Shown here one piece after another: positions 57,214 through 63,259 of a DNA stretch of 64,000 nt. Source of the stretch: Fibrobacteraceae bacterium. GTDB lineage: Bacteria > Fibrobacterota > Fibrobacteria > Fibrobacterales > Fibrobacteraceae. Position numbers and translations under genes: made by a program. Numbering within the stretch: position 1 is the first letter of the stretch; each line of letters opens with the position of its first letter. Under the pieces are notes generated by a model. That model was not told where the DNA came from, did not search any database, and saw only the letters and a list, made by a program, of their open reading frames with translations. The stretch spans positions 1-64,000 of the forward strand of contig JAGBSH010000029.1 in assembly GCA_017631885.1 (NCBI GenBank), given 5' to 3'.

Positions 57214-57318
57214 GGGCGTTCCCTCGGCTTCGTTACGCACTACGCCAAGGTCGGGCTATACTCGCTACGCTCACCGAGCCTATCGTCTCAGGCCCCAAGG
57301 GGTCACTATCCCTAACGC
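57214..57318 (+). repeat. 105-bp dispersed repeat, copy 2
   Basis: Begins GGGCGTTCCCT and ends CTATCCCTAACGC, the same length and ends as the copy at 41479, with shared inner blocks CGGGCTATACTCGC and GCTCACCGAGCCT. The middle differs (an extra ACGCACTACGCC segment, and GGCCCCAAGGGG in place of the other palindrome), so the copies are modular relatives. It lies just upstream of the EamA start. Confidence 0.8.
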
Positions 57319-57334
57319 AAAAGGAACAAAAAAA

Positions 57335-57545
57335 CTAGCCTTTGCAAGGCAAAAAATAATATTCGTCTAAAGAAGACTTTTGAATTCCGATTCGTTCTAT
57401 ATTGCAATCACCTAGAACAGTTCCAGTTAATTTTTTCCCATTGATAATTCCTGGTAGCCTATACTTTTCGCCATAAGCGAACTATTCAAAAAGGAAAATC
57501 ATCGTTTTTAATGGTCATGACTGTTTTTTGCGAAATTTTAGACAT
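57335..57545 (-). pseudogene. small decayed reading frame
   Basis: On the minus strand an ATG at 57545 opens SKISQKTVMTIKNDDFPF and stops. A shifted frame then continues with FAYGEKYRLPGIINGKKL and DCNIERIGIQKSSLDEYYFL to a TAG at 57335. The pieces look like one short protein broken by a frameshift. Family not recognised. Two copies of TTTTAGACATAGA (57536 and 57577) overlap and precede its start and could be an operator. Confidence 0.3.
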
Positions 57546-57617
57546 AGATTGCCTAACGTGTCTAATTTTTGTGATTTTTTAGACATAGACTATCTAGCAT
57601 ACTTTTTCCTTTTCGGG

Positions 57618-57790
57618 TTATTTATCCTCTACATTTGGCTGATTTATAAACAAGTCTATTAAACGCTGATTGATATAGTAGTTGGTTTTTCCCAACTTTT
57701 TCTTTATTCAACAACCCCATTTTTACCAACTCATCAAGGTATTTTGCCGCAGTAAGGCGATAGACCTCGAGATCACGGACAATATACTCA
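57618..57790 (-). pseudogene. Fic-family C-terminal winged-helix remnant
   Basis: The minus strand encodes YRLTAAKYLDELVKMGLLNK, EKVGKN, then after a one-base shift YYINQRLIDLFINQPNVEDK and a stop at 57618. This is the C-terminal DNA-binding-like tail of Fic/DOC-type adenylyltransferases. The frameshift and the loss of everything upstream, including the Fic core, mark it as a relic. Confidence 0.6.
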
Positions 57791-57985
57791 ATCTATTTTG
57801 CTCCAAAAGCCGTTCTTGTCAGCCCCCTACCAATTTAACATGCCTACTGCTTGTAGCTTCTTAAGATTTGCTACAATACTCTTGCGCGAAATGCCGATTT
57901 TTTTTAGAAAGTTCATCCAAAGTGACATGCGGATTTTTCTTGATTTTCAACGGCTTTCAAAATCATCATCACTTTATTTGTGCAC
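57791..57985 (-). pseudogene. winged-helix remnant (AlbA_2/ATPase-type C-terminus)
   Basis: The minus strand reads MMILKAVENQ, then shifted NPHVTLDELSKK, then shifted again IGISRKSIVANLKKLQAVGM, LNW-stop-GADKNGFW. This is the usual C-terminal helix-turn-helix of AlbA_2/HATPase-type putative DNA-binding proteins, broken by two frameshifts and stops. It abuts the Fic remnant and reaches the promoter of the XRE gene. Confidence 0.55.
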
Positions 57986-57997
57986 TATATAGCGTGG
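57981..57997 (+). promoter_or_regulatory. candidate operator, copy 1 (upstream of XRE gene)
   Basis: TGCACTATATAGCGTGG lies 55 bases upstream of the XRE regulator start. Its core CTATATAG is a perfect palindrome flanked by CAC and GTG, so it suits a dimeric HTH protein. The exact 17-mer occurs again at 61725. A half-site GCACTAT follows at 58005. An att-like direct repeat is an alternative explanation. Confidence 0.65.
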
Positions 57998-58052
57998 TAA
58001 AATATTGCACTATTTATATGTTTGAAGAAAACCTATCAATCGCATTTACTAT

Positions 58053-58550
58053 ATGTCTCTTCAACAAAATATTGGCATTGCCTTAAAAGTTCTACGCGCA
58101 GAAAAAGGAATCTCTCAAGAAAAACTTGCCCTTGAAACTGGTATTGGCAGGCGCTACATGAGTGATATTGAAAATGGGCGTAGAAATATTTCTCTTGAAA
58201 TTATTGAGAAACTATCTGATTTTTTTCAGATGAGGCCCAGCGATTTTCTTCTAAAAATTGAAAACGCCATGGTTTCACCTTTAACACTTGATTCTTTAAA
58301 AGAATACCTTTGCGCAAGAGGCTACGAAGAAACAATTATTCTAGAATCTCCCGATTACCTCTCTGCAATTGTCGGAATCAGTGACGATGCTCGTATTATT
58401 TACGATTACGAAAAAATGGTAAAATTTCTAATGATCTCTGAAGGTATGGATTACGAGGAAGCGATAGAATTCATTGACTTCAACACACTTGGAGCACTGC
58501 CTTATATGGGCGAGAAACGGCCAATAATTTTGAATCGAATTGAGGGGTAA
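58053..58550 (+). CDS. XRE-family regulator with C-terminal domain
   Basis: A 165-aa protein. Residues 5-62 form a Cro/C1-type helix-turn-helix (GIALKVLRAEKGISQEKLALETGIGRRYMSDIENG, written here in two overlapping parts: GIALKVLRAEKGISQEKLAL and ETGIGRRYMSDIENGRRN). The C-terminal half (DDARIIYDYEKMVKFL, EEAIEFIDFNTLGALPY) matches a small domain found beside defence genes. It resembles restriction-controller (C) proteins in position and size. The stop is 2 bases before the helicase start, so the two are co-translated. Two identical candidate operators suggest it regulates both this operon and the gene at 61818. Confidence 0.85.
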   Translation: MSLQQNIGIALKVLRAEKGISQEKLALETGIGRRYMSDIENGRRNISLEIIEKLSDFFQMRPSDFLLKIENAMVSPLTLDSLKEYLCARGYEETIILESPDYLSAIVGISDDARIIYDYEKMVKFLMISEGMDYEEAIEFIDFNTLGALPYMGEKRPIILNRIEG

Positions 58551-58552
58551 AT

Positions 58553-61500
58553 ATGTTAAAAACGGGATTGTATGAACAAGTCATAAACGAAGCCCTATCC
58601 AAGGAAATGGATACATCCAAACAACTTTATGATTGCAGAGAAATTGACAAAACAGAATCTCCTCAAATATTATCAAAATACCTTTCCGAAATCATAGAAA
58701 AAGGGTTATCCCATTTTCCTAAAGACGATACAGAAAAACGCCTTGAGCTCACCAACAAGATTGTTTCTGTAATCACGGAAGCAACCGATGACAAAGATTT
58801 CAACAACTTGCGAGTTAATCAAAAGCCCGAACAACTTTTTGCCGTCGCAAACATACTAAATAATGCAGGAGCAATAAAGCAACAGCTTTCAATGCCACGG
58901 CCAGAGACATCTCTAGTTTCTAGTTCCCTTTTTACGGGCGCAGGGCATGAGCCGCAAATGATGACAGAAATCAAGAAGGAAATCGCATCAGCGGACAAAA
59001 TTGATTTTTTAGTATCCTTTATTAAGTGGAGTGGACTCGTTCTAATTTATGATGAACTGAAAAAATTCACAGAAATGGGCGGAAAACTGCGCGTTATAAC
59101 AACTTCATATATGGGCGCAACAGATTTAAAAGCCATCATAGAACTAAACAAGTTGCCAAACACAGAAATAAAAATATCCTACGACACGGAACGCACCAGA
59201 CTTCATGCGAAATCATACATTTTTTATCGCAATACCGGATTTTCAACCGCTTACGTTGGATCTTCTAACATATCCAACGCCGCAATGACTAGTGGACTAG
59301 AATGGAATTTAAAAATTACTGCACATGACCAGCCGCATACTATCAGAAAAATCAATGCAACTTTTGAAAACTATTGGAGTAGCACAGATTTTTCATTATA
59401 CACAGAAGAAGATGAAAATCGTTTGTTAGAGGCACTAAAGGCCGAAAAACATATCTCCAATCTAGAAGGCGACTACAGCTTTGATATACGGCCTTTTTCC
59501 TACCAGCAGGAAATTCTTGACAAACTTTCTGCAGAACGCCAAATAAGAAACCATTTCAAAAATCTTGTTGTTGCCGCAACGGGTACTGGGAAAACTGTCA
59601 TATCGGCTTTTGACTACAAACGCTTTAAACAAGAAAATAGCCACACTAGGTTATTGTTTGTCGCTCATAGAAAAGAAATCCTTAAACAAAGCATTAAGTG
59701 TTTTCGGGGAGTTCTCCATGACGCAAATTTTGGAGAACTGTTTTTTGGAGGTACAACGCCCAATAGCCTAGATAATTTATTCATATCCATCGAAACATTT
59801 AATTCGCAAGAACTGGACAAAAAAACATCTTCAGATTTTTACGATTTCATCATTATTGATGAATTTCATCATGCCGCAGCGCCAACATACCAAAGACTTT
59901 TAGAATACTACAAACCTAAAATTCTGCTAGGACTGACAGCTACACCCGAACGGATGGACGGTAAAAACGTTCTGTCCTATTTTGATAATCGAATTGCTGC
60001 TGAGATTCGTCTTCCAGAAGCGATTGACCGAAAACTGCTATGCCCATTTCATTATTTCGGTATTACCGATGAAGTTGATTTACAAAGTGTAAAATGGTCA
60101 CGTGGAGGGTACGACAAAACAGTTCTTTCTAATGTTTATACTGGAAACGATCTACGTGTAATCCTAATTTTGGAACAATTAAAAAAGTACATCGCAGATA
60201 TGGAAAAAGTCAAGGGTCTTGGCTTCTGTGTTTCGAAAGAACACGCCGAATACATGGCCCAAAGGTTCAACAAATCAAACATTCCCTCAATCGCATTAAC
60301 TGCAGACAGCGACAAAAACGAACGTGATTCTGCGCAAGCAAAGATTGCTGCGGGAGATTTAAAATTTATCTTCACTGTCGATCTTTACAATGAAGGGGTT
60401 GATATTCCTTCTATAAACACCGTCATGTTCCTGAGACCTACAGAAAGCTTGACAATCTTTTTACAACAACTTGGACGAGGTTTACGACTTTGTGACGGCA
60501 AAGATTGTCTGACGGTTTTAGATTTCATTGGGCAAGCACACACTAAGTATAACTTTGAATCAAAATTTGCAGCACTTTTAGGCAATACCAAGCGCAAAGT
60601 TATAGACGAAATCAAAAGCGGATTCCTAGCACTTCCAAAAGGGTGTTATATTCAGCTTGAAGAAAAGGCGGAACGGTATATTCTTGACAACATCCGCCAG
60701 GCTGTAGGAACAAAAAAAGCAATCATATCAAAGATCGCATCCTTCAGCGAAGAAACGGGGAAATGTCCATCCATTTCCGAATTTCTCGATTATTTCAATC
60801 TAGAACTTGATTCTATCTATTCAAGTGGCAGAAGTTTTACAAGATTATGCGTTGAAGCCAAGGCTAAAGAAAATTTTTCAGAAGAAATAGAAGATGTTAT
60901 AACAAAAGCCCTACCTCGCCTTTCTTTTATGGATTCTCATCGATTCATAGAGTTTATCATTGATTATCTACCCAAGATAAATGATTATACCATCAATGAT
61001 TTTAGTGAAATGCAACAAAAAATGTGGCAAATGCTACAATTTACTATTTGGCAAAAGCCATATGAAGAATGTGGATTCAATAACCTTCTAGAAGGATTCC
61101 GTAAAATTGCAAATGCTCCCACAATGATGAATGAAATTATTGATTTACTGATGTACAAATATGAAAAAATTGATTTTATCGATGAACCTGTTCCTGTAAA
61201 TTTTGAATGTCCACTTGATTTACATTGTAGTTACACAAGGGACCAAATTCTAGTAGCTCTCGGCTTTATGAAACCGAATTCTTTACGTGAAGGAGTGAAA
61301 TATTTTGAAGACAAAAAGATTGACGTATTTTTTGTAACATTGAATAAATCTGATAAGGATTATTCTCCGACAACGATGTACAACGATTACGCCATCAATG
61401 ACGAATTATTTCATTGGCAGAGTCAAAGCACAACGTCCGCTCAAAGCAAAACCGGTAATCGATATGCAAATCATATTCAAATGGGATCAAATGTGATGTT

Positions 61501-61669
61501 ATTTGTTCGTGAATACAAAAAAACAAAATTAGGGACTGCGCCCTATACATTTTTAGGATTGGTGGATTATGTCAGTTCAGAAGGTTCAAAACCGATGAAT
61601 ATAATTTGGAAACTAAAAAAGCCAATTCCAGCAAAATATCTAAAAACAAGCTTAGTAATCGCTGGATAA
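58553..61669 (+). CDS. PLD-nuclease / DEAD-like helicase / DUF3427 protein
   Basis: A 1038-aa multidomain protein. N-terminal region about 130-270: a phospholipase-D-like nuclease module with LHAKSYIFYR and YVGSSNISNAAM. Middle (about 310-680): superfamily 2 helicase with Walker A VAATGTGKT (about 342), DEFH box IIDEFHHAA (about 435), GLTATPERMDG and motif VI QQLGRGLRL (about 638). C-terminal part: DUF3427 with RDQILVALGFMKPN, YNDYAINDELFHWQSQS and NVMLFVREYKK. Similar proteins occur as solitary restriction or phage-defence factors. A GAGGGG site precedes the ATG. Likely role: recognise and cut foreign DNA with ATP-driven translocation. Confidence 0.9.
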   Translation: MLKTGLYEQVINEALSKEMDTSKQLYDCREIDKTESPQILSKYLSEIIEKGLSHFPKDDTEKRLELTNKIVSVITEATDDKDFNNLRVNQKPEQLFAVANILNNAGAIKQQLSMPRPETSLVSSSLFTGAGHEPQMMTEIKKEIASADKIDFLVSFIKWSGLVLIYDELKKFTEMGGKLRVITTSYMGATDLKAIIELNKLPNTEIKISYDTERTRLHAKSYIFYRNTGFSTAYVGSSNISNAAMTSGLEWNLKITAHDQPHTIRKINATFENYWSSTDFSLYTEEDENRLLEALKAEKHISNLEGDYSFDIRPFSYQQEILDKLSAERQIRNHFKNLVVAATGTGKTVISAFDYKRFKQENSHTRLLFVAHRKEILKQSIKCFRGVLHDANFGELFFGGTTPNSLDNLFISIETFNSQELDKKTSSDFYDFIIIDEFHHAAAPTYQRLLEYYKPKILLGLTATPERMDGKNVLSYFDNRIAAEIRLPEAIDRKLLCPFHYFGITDEVDLQSVKWSRGGYDKTVLSNVYTGNDLRVILILEQLKKYIADMEKVKGLGFCVSKEHAEYMAQRFNKSNIPSIALTADSDKNERDSAQAKIAAGDLKFIFTVDLYNEGVDIPSINTVMFLRPTESLTIFLQQLGRGLRLCDGKDCLTVLDFIGQAHTKYNFESKFAALLGNTKRKVIDEIKSGFLALPKGCYIQLEEKAERYILDNIRQAVGTKKAIISKIASFSEETGKCPSISEFLDYFNLELDSIYSSGRSFTRLCVEAKAKENFSEEIEDVITKALPRLSFMDSHRFIEFIIDYLPKINDYTINDFSEMQQKMWQMLQFTIWQKPYEECGFNNLLEGFRKIANAPTMMNEIIDLLMYKYEKIDFIDEPVPVNFECPLDLHCSYTRDQILVALGFMKPNSLREGVKYFEDKKIDVFFVTLNKSDKDYSPTTMYNDYAINDELFHWQSQSTTSAQSKTGNRYANHIQMGSNVMLFVREYKKTKLGTAPYTFLGLVDYVSSEGSKPMNIIWKLKKPIPAKYLKTSLVIAG

Positions 61670-61724
61670 TTTTTAACAATCTTTTAAGTCTTTCTATAAA
61701 TAATTTATTGTCTTAATTAAAACA

Positions 61725-61741
61725 TGCACTATATAGCGTGG
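61725..61741 (+). promoter_or_regulatory. candidate operator, copy 2 (upstream of SRA-like gene)
   Basis: An exact second copy of TGCACTATATAGCGTGG, in the same orientation, 76 bases upstream of the start at 61818. The 148-base gap between the helicase and this gene contains no other feature, and the site implies the downstream gene has its own promoter under the same controller. Confidence 0.65.
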
Positions 61742-61817
61742 ATCAAAAACAACATAAAGTATACCTTTACAAAGACAACTGCAAATGTGGTACAACGATC
61801 TTTGAAAAAGGGATAAA

Positions 61818-62261
61818 ATGTTTTTTGAAGAAGGTGATTGGATTGATAAAAATACTATCAAAAAAGTTTTCAATCTAAAGGGATACGCAAGAGGCATAAA
61901 TGCATCTAAAGCACAAAACATTATTGTATGTATTTCTGCAGAAAATGGTCCAAGTAACCCTTATATTGACAAGTGGTATCATAATGACGAGTATGATGGT
62001 ATTCTTTATACAGGTGAAGGACAACAAGGGGATCAGAAACTTACAAGAGGAAACGAAAAACTAGCTGCTAAAGGGAAAGCTCATTTTTTTCGGAAAGTAA
62101 AACAAAAATATTTATACTGTGGGGAATTTCTTCTAAAAGAATATAAAAAAACAACGGAAAACGATATTCGTGGGTTACCAAGAATTGTTTTTAAATTTAA
62201 TATGAAATATAGCGGTAACCATTACTCAGAAAAACTGAGAAAAGAAATGAATGAATTATAA
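61818..62261 (+). CDS. SRA-like (modified-DNA reader) domain protein
   Basis: A 147-aa protein. The block ILYTGEGQQGDQKLTRGNEK, then KKYLYCGEF-like YLYCGEFLLKEY, follows the SRA/YDG pattern (Y-T-G-x-G...DQ...L-x-x-G-N...Y-x-G-x-Y/F) of proteins that flip out methylated cytosines. The N-terminal 50 residues are unassigned. It starts after AAAGGGA. The same frame continues after the TAA at 62259 for another 30 codons of helical sequence, so the present stop may be a recent nonsense change. It is probably the target-recognition partner of the helicase module. Confidence 0.6.
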   Translation: MFFEEGDWIDKNTIKKVFNLKGYARGINASKAQNIIVCISAENGPSNPYIDKWYHNDEYDGILYTGEGQQGDQKLTRGNEKLAAKGKAHFFRKVKQKYLYCGEFLLKEYKKTTENDIRGLPRIVFKFNMKYSGNHYSEKLRKEMNEL

Positions 62262-62328
62262 ATAGAACAAATATTAAATAAATTATCAGAAAAAGAATTA
62301 ACTGATTTAATAAACAAAATAAGAAAAA

Positions 62329-62649
62329 CTACCCATCCTCCACCAACACCATAACATCATTCTCCTCAAACACTTCCCCAAACGCTTGCTCATAACAATT
62401 TTGCAATGCCATTTTCAAATCGCAATTTTCTCTAAACAAGACCATTCCACTATCCAAACACTCCATGTCCAGTTCGCCATCAATATCAATGCATTCCGGC
62501 TTAAATGTTGACCAGAGACAATAATCAACGTATCCTTCCCGGATGTCTTCTTTAAGAAGGTTGTCACCTGTGCCGGCCTGGATTTTCAGGAAGGCGTTTT
62601 TGCTCTTGATCCACGCGAGTATCGCACCGCTGAACGTGTCTTTTCCCAT
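62329..62649 (-). CDS. unrecognised small protein
   Basis: A 106-aa acidic protein (MGKDTFSGAILAWIKSKNAF at the start) without a signal peptide or a known motif. The ATG at 62649 has GGAG 5 bases upstream. An open frame continues further upstream to 62775 but lacks coding character. It converges with the SRA-like gene and overlaps that gene's possible C-terminal extension. Confidence 0.55.
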   Translation of the reverse strand: MGKDTFSGAILAWIKSKNAFLKIQAGTGDNLLKEDIREGYVDYCLWSTFKPECIDIDGELDMECLDSGMVLFRENCDLKMALQNCYEQAFGEVFEENDVMVLVEDG

Positions 62650-62875
62650 AAGGTCTCCGAAGAATTTTGAAAATAATATCGTTATACACATAAATGTATT
62701 TATAACGAGCTTTGTATTTAGCAATACAAGCCGAGGTATCTCCACCTTTTTTGTGAGTTTCACGAATGCCAGCAAGCATAGCTGCTTATCAAACGCACAA
62801 CCAATATAAATTTGTTTTTCACAAAAACAACCTAGAGAATTTCCCTATTTAGATTTTGCTATTTTCTAGTTGCTT

Positions 62876-63259
62876 ATGAAAAGGATTGAAGTAGTTGCAG
62901 GCATTATCAAAAGTGGCGAAAAGATTTTTGCGACAGAGCGCGGTTATGGCGAATTCAAAGGGTTCTGGGAATTTCCTGGCGGTAAAATAGAAGCTAACGA
63001 AACTCGCGAACAAGCACTTGTTCGCGAATTAAAAGAAGAACTGGCTGTTGAAATAAAAGTTGAAAATTTTCTCTGCACCATAAACTACGATTACCCCTCT
63101 TTTCATTTAACAATGCATTGCTTTTATTGCTCTATCGTTAAAGGCGAATTAACTTTATTAGAACACCAATCAGCTAAATGGTTAAAAGTAAACGAATTAG
63201 ATTCTGTTAAATGGTTACCTGCCGATATTGAAGTGATTGAAATTTTAAAAACACATTAA
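62876..63259 (+). CDS. NUDIX hydrolase, MutT-like
   Basis: A 127-aa NUDIX enzyme. The signature GGKIEANETREQALVRELKE continues with E, matching G-x5-E-x7-RE-x2-E-E-x-G/A. The size, WEFPGGKIE and the C-terminal WLPADIEVIE fit 8-oxo-dGTP diphosphatases of the MutT type, which clean the nucleotide pool. I chose the ATG at 62876 (a TTG two codons earlier is open). Confidence 0.88.
   Translation: MKRIEVVAGIIKSGEKIFATERGYGEFKGFWEFPGGKIEANETREQALVRELKEELAVEIKVENFLCTINYDYPSFHLTMHCFYCSIVKGELTLLEHQSAKWLKVNELDSVKWLPADIEVIEILKTH

Follow-up and report, generated by a model that had tools for sequence, protein, structure and literature searches.

A predicted SauUSI-like restriction enzyme with an XRE regulator and a separate, box-linked SRA protein at a variable locus of a Fibrobacteraceae bacterium

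Organization of the locus

The window, by which we mean the whole 64,000-nucleotide stretch of Fibrobacteraceae DNA analyzed here, carries three forward-strand open reading frames whose extents agree exactly with an initial annotation made from the letters alone: an XRE-family regulator gene, a 1038-codon gene that follows after a gap of 2 bp and, 148 bp beyond the end of the latter, a 147-codon gene (Table 1). The PLD, SF2 helicase, DUF3427 and SRA-like motifs read in that annotation were all recovered by Pfam and fold comparison. The 17-bp repeat listed as boxes 1 and 2 had been overlooked.

Table 1. Features of the locus in window coordinates
Feature	Coordinates	Strand	Basis or remark
XRE-family regulator, 165 aa	58053..58550	+	ORF list; Pfam HTH_3 at aa 11-64
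SauUSI-like ATP-dependent type IV restriction enzyme (predicted), 1038 aa	58553..61669	+	7clg, PADLOC PDLC03659, alignment A1
PLD nuclease domain (H218-x-K220, GSSN 236-239)	58982..59377	+	Pfam, alignment
SF2 ATPase/translocase (GTGKT 344, DEFH 436, LTATP 461, QQLGRGLR 638)	59486..60490	+	Pfam, motifs
DUF3427 including SRA-fold target recognition domain	61091..61636	+	Pfam, alignment to SauUSI, PMC7913695
Box 1, TGCACTATATAGCGTGG, putative XRE operator with CAC-N8-GTG arms	57981..57997	+	55 bp before XRE start
TGCACTATTTATATG, second related element, XRE promoters only	58006..58020	+	Upstream-region alignment
Box 2, exact copy of box 1	61725..61741	+	76 bp before SRA gene
Stand-alone SRA-domain protein, 147 aa	61818..62261	+	Pfam, predicted fold, orthologues
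MutT/NudG-like NUDIX gene (PADLOC PDC-S07), conserved chromosomal flank	62870..63259	+	Pfam, PADLOC

The 1038-residue protein resembles SauUSI

In the 1038-residue protein Pfam placed PLDc_2 at residues 144-275 (E 2.6e-10), ResIII at 312-467 (E 3.5e-38), Helicase_C at 541-646 (E 1.6e-13) and DUF3427 at 847-1028 (E 2.5e-27), and the same protein matched the PADLOC mREase_IV model PDLC03659 (E 1.4e-236) and, over residues 135-1011, the SauUSI structure PDB 7clg (E 2e-91). Like SauUSI, it combines in one polypeptide a PLD nuclease, an SF2 ATPase, a coupler and a C-terminal DUF3427/SRA target recognition domain (TRD), with the PLD (HxK, GSSN) and Walker motifs unbroken. The C-terminal TRD of SauUSI corresponds to DUF3427 in Pfam (PMC3874153) and has an SRA fold, in which a flipped 5mC was modelled in a pocket of Y831, F841, I842 and W868 with D858 touching the base (PMC7913695). 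Our alignment pairs SauUSI residues Y831, F841, I842, D858 and W868 with Y917, F927, V928, D945 and W955, respectively, such that five of six named pocket residues are identical or conservatively replaced (Y, F, I/V, D, W), and the DNA-inserting M829 corresponds to V915. Homology identifies the protein, with little doubt, as a type IV SauUSI-like restriction enzyme that is presumably 5mC-dependent, which supports the earlier proposal of a modification-dependent restriction module. With an SRA-fold DUF3427 and kept pocket residues, however, the cutter very probably includes its own modified-cytosine reader, and the initial premise that separate chains do the reading and the cutting does not hold for this enzyme. 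Nor is the system undescribed, as had been suggested, since its main enzyme falls within the named and structurally solved SauUSI family.

This family is widespread, with at least 585 stretches confirmed among the 595 listed from genome contigs, and the window enzyme is overall closer to the PADLOC PDLC03659 subfamily than to PDLC03658. Its N-terminal 100-130 residues (window 58553-58950) have neither a counterpart in the S. aureus SauUSI alignment nor a Pfam match; the extension is present throughout alignment A1 of this subfamily.

A stand-alone SRA-domain protein

The 147-residue protein matched SAD_SRA (PF02182) with E 8.4e-4 and 19.6 bits, under the curated cut-off of 30.7, and its orthologue at locus L196 exceeded that cut-off (E 8.5e-10, 39 bits). 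AF2 run on the single sequence gave a pLDDT of 32; an alignment of 24 viral homologues was needed for a confident model (pLDDT 89.6, pTM 0.85). Foldseek matched this model to ScoMcrA (E 3.4e-7), to the SRA domain of SUVH5 (TM 0.69/0.72) and also to the MspJI SRA domain and UHRF2, and the PYxDxW and YTGxG..GDQ motifs are conserved in the family. Structure prediction, proposed earlier as a check on the separate SRA-like protein, yielded an SRA fold; as modelled, the protein is a true stand-alone SRA protein, and it proved to be conserved and linked to the box. It shares 35% identity with the SRA portion of SRA-HNH enzymes from Lactobacillales, and no HNH domain was found within its 147 residues.

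Of the 168 genomes of the phylum, five contain an SRA gene, the window genome being one of them; protein identity is 39-50%. Searches of plasmids, phages and viral contigs with a single sequence or a narrow alignment returned distant SRA-HNH or AAA-fused matches, or nothing; a broader SRA alignment led to 31 viral loci, and in nearly all viral-contig relatives the domain is joined to an HNH or PD-(D/E)XK-type part. In one other phylum, sampled by a small set of 17 genomes, the search gave no match.

A 17-bp box precedes both the XRE and the SRA genes

The 17-bp sequence TGCACTATATAGCGTGG is found in identical form upstream of the XRE gene and of the SRA gene, and a genome-wide count with a 15-bp core and up to 2 mismatches allowed revealed no third site. 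When the upstream regions of XRE orthologues from relatives (57-73% identical) were compared, 16 of the 17 XRE loci, or all full-length orthologues examined except one, had the box between -63 and -70 relative to the XRE ATG; at L151, where XRE is 57% identical, the pattern gave no box at the usual spot and a variant is visible farther upstream. The controller role first assigned to the XRE protein is supported. The element TGCACTATTTATATG, conserved in the aligned XRE promoters, is possibly a second half-site or a -10 region. All four other SRA genes likewise have a box upstream, including that of L199, where the XRE and SRA genes diverge. Zero-mismatch boxes were confined, among the 201 genomes searched, to those with this XRE: two boxes were present in G000, G151, G161 and G163, the second upstream of SRA; in G166, the fifth SRA genome, the second box, also upstream of SRA, is degenerate by eye; and the ten other XRE genomes with a box, all without SRA, have one each. 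It is highly likely from this distribution that XRE and SRA are co-regulated through the common box.

The description of the regulator as a C-protein-like repressor stood in part. As with the C proteins of type II R-M systems, an XRE-type HTH regulator lies upstream of a restriction enzyme gene and is associated with a promoter box, but no partner methyltransferase was recognized among the genes adjoining the module (the single C5-methyltransferase found in the genome is on another contig), the window XRE is, at 165 residues, distinguished from C proteins by an extra C-terminal part, and repression is something we infer. XRE orthologues occur in 18 of the 168 genomes of the phylum, this genome among them. 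The C-terminal ~90 residues (EEAIEFIDFNTLGALPYMGEKRPIIL, window 58317-58547) have no Pfam match and are a possible sensor domain; in G148, locus L215 matches this part of XRE only.

Relatives pair the regulator with different effectors

SRA adjoins XRE in all five SRA-bearing genomes, each of which is among the 18 of 168 with XRE (hypergeometric ~8e-6, calculated by hand with relatedness ignored). The effector that accompanies XRE varies. It is a SauUSI-like enzyme in the window and at L202, a SauUSI of another subfamily together with a NUDIX gene at L153, L154 and L157, a McrB/McrC-like or LlaJI-like pair at L152, L155, L156, L199, L200 and L201, and a Schlafen-group-3 helicase protein (PADLOC PDC-S41) at L151, L196 and L197, while at L198 the SRA gene directly abuts another McrB/McrC gene pair. 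SRA was found with four effector settings and is absent from most XRE cassettes, SauUSI ones among them. The synteny first proposed as a check, a DUF3427 helicase gene beside a small SRA gene, failed: an adjacent SRA gene was seen at none of ~85 SauUSI-like loci elsewhere, and a related SRA gene anywhere in the genome was found in only 1 of 50 SauUSI-like-bearing genomes, which leaves the SRA-SauUSI pairing unique to the window. Varied effectors, and an SRA gene found in four settings but beside no other SauUSI, instead indicate that the unit of conservation is XRE and its box with an optional SRA gene, the nuclease being changeable.

Two proteins that occupy the effector position of an XRE/box cassette, at L150 (7322-8632, 436 aa) and L158 (8302-9702, 466 aa), have no Pfam match; that of L158 matched a PADLOC type II REase model (1.7e-18). 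Both are candidate new restriction effectors by virtue of this position.

Chromosomal site and the NUDIX neighbor

In the same-genus genome G001 this site, bounded by an EamA-like transporter gene (88% identical) on one side and the NUDIX gene (96% identical) on the other, holds ~11.5 kb of other cargo with a related XRE in it. The region at window ~57240-62480 thus behaves as a variable defense locus. We did not accept the NUDIX gene at 62870 as a certain member of the module and kept it outside, because this flank persists in a same-genus genome that lacks both SauUSI and SRA.

A NUDIX gene is nevertheless the directly coupled same-strand neighbor of SauUSI-like genes at 24 of 83 loci (13 upstream, 11 downstream; L026, L027, L029, L039, L052, L053, L055, L057, L062, L075, L080, L083, L084, L086-L088, L090-L093, L096 and L100-L102), against a background of 2 of 301 other long ORFs at the same loci (Fisher p 1e-15, relatedness not corrected for). 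It also abuts or overlaps the SauUSI-like gene at L010, L153, L154, L157 and L202, and the coupled NUDIX was PADLOC PDC-S07 in all eight scanned. E. coli NudG hydrolyses 5-methyl-dCTP according to O'Handley 2001, as cited in PMC5389931; profile scores did not separate a NudG-like from a MutT-like function. The coupled NUDIX may remove 5-methyl- or 5-hydroxymethyl-dCTP and so guard against self-restriction, or may starve phages of modified dCTP; a testable idea is that it prevents the host chromosome from taking up modified dCTP, which could for example be salvaged when foreign DNA is shredded. No paper on SauUSI and NUDIX as a gene pair was found in the open-access literature.

A 148-residue ORF without a Pfam match is located at window 62329-62775 (reverse strand) and again at L150 (4846-5292). 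In G001 a portion of this segment (62422-62662, 91%) is present as two copies that flank a RhuM-like gene, which suggests a duplication at the cargo boundary.

A model for the module and its alternatives

We consider it moderately probable, on the sequence comparisons above, that the locus encodes a transcriptionally controlled type IV restriction module directed at modified cytosine, in which XRE and its box govern a SauUSI-like cutter and an auxiliary SRA reader. XRE would bind the box and repress both promoters, its own included, thereby limiting a toxic nuclease in a host whose own DNA probably contains 5mC, as the C5-cytosine methyltransferase of a LlaJI-like R-M locus in the same genome implies (L250, contig C27, 3802-8207; with a McrB-like AAA protein and a RE_LlaJI protein). 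Upon derepression, for instance at DNA entry or infection, XRE, SauUSI and SRA would be made together; the SauUSI TRD would flip 5mC or 5hmC, the ATPase would translocate and a PLD dimer would cut, while SRA in trans would mark modified sites or widen the target range for whichever effector is present. XRE could instead be an activator. The role of SRA as a trans reader of modified cytosine is, on our reckoning, slightly less likely than not. Several points weigh against the model as a whole: the main effector already has a reader, so that cutting does not require a second; SRA is absent from most XRE cassettes and from all other SauUSI loci; and only two genera supplied the five SRA genes, so that the events are few. 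More tentatively, we propose that one XRE repressor and operator together with a diffusible SRA reader, acting as trans sensor or self-shield, may serve interchangeable and unrelated effectors (SauUSI, McrBC/LlaJI-like, Schlafen-helicase PDC-S41).

One alternative is that a single gene provides plain SauUSI-type restriction under a repressor of its own, SRA being an unrelated passenger that captured the box and contributes nothing. A single SauUSI polypeptide suffices for activity (PMC3874153) and the SRA-SauUSI pairing is confined to the window, but a passenger would not be expected to keep both the box and its adjacency to XRE in five of five SRA genes that have diverged to 39-50% identity and sit among four effectors, and we regard this explanation as rather unlikely. 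A further step down, and decidedly unlikely, is a function of SRA as shield or antidote that covers host 5mC sites from the SauUSI-like enzyme or McrBC, hence its co-induction. Such a protein would have to be co-regulated with its toxic partner, host 5mC is made probable by the LlaJI-like methyltransferase, and the window SRA lacks the nuclease domain to which its viral-contig relatives are nearly always joined; most XRE cassettes, those with SauUSI included, nonetheless do without SRA, and SauUSI targets need not include LlaJI-type sites.

Two further explanations concern single elements of the locus. The likeness of the 147-codon gene to SRA-HNH enzymes, and the frame past its TAA (IEQILNKLSEKELTDLINKIRK), which resembles an SRA-HNH linker, hint at a broken 5′ remnant of a McrA-like SRA-HNH gene. 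We ruled out a truncated pseudogene because the orthologues of L198 and L199 stop at the same position (YPEKLA..M..F, then stop), as does the frameshifted gene of L197 (G161) when read past its frameshift; the gene has also retained its box, and a remnant is highly improbable. Equally improbable is that the repeat, instead of being an operator, is a recombination or attachment site on either side of a mobile XRE-SauUSI cassette. The two copies do flank this cassette exactly, and the locus is variable, as the other cargo of G001 between the EamA-like and NUDIX genes attests, yet the box is always promoter-proximal, at its usual distance from XRE and upstream of SRA even in the divergent L199, and a single copy is all that most XRE loci possess.

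Relation to known systems

None of SauUSI, SRA domains, McrBC or C-like regulators is new in itself, and the usual description of a type IV enzyme is that of a single, unregulated unit in which reader and cutter are fused. SauUSI-type enzymes cut 5mC/5hmC DNA with two sites in an ATP-dependent manner. Relative to SauUSI, the window enzyme has its ~100-130-residue N-terminal extension, an XRE operon and an extra SRA gene. The SRA protein resembles the SRA-HNH enzymes (ScoMcrA, TagI, Lactobacillales and viral) in its YTGxG..GDQ.L...N type and predicted fold and differs from them in having no fused nuclease and in being encoded by a separate, box-controlled gene. McrBC/LlaJI-type systems hold the same effector position in the XRE cassettes of relatives, where the window instead has a SauUSI-like effector. 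BrxR/CapW and RptR offer a likeness, a small regulator tied to a restriction or defense operon, without sequence-based membership. In the open-access literature we found no paper in which a free SRA protein is brought together with an XRE operator and a type IV enzyme.

A conserved operator-like box thus links several unrelated effectors with an SRA reader encoded on its own, which makes two questions testable: whether modification readers act in trans, and how modification-dependent restriction is silenced in hosts with 5mC. The occurrence of PDC-S41 as an effector of the XRE cassette also points toward what this candidate defense protein may do. Its N-terminal part appears PD-(D/E)XK-like by eye at L151, L196 and L197, and SRA is present at two of these loci, which hints at a possible modification dependence of PDC-S41.
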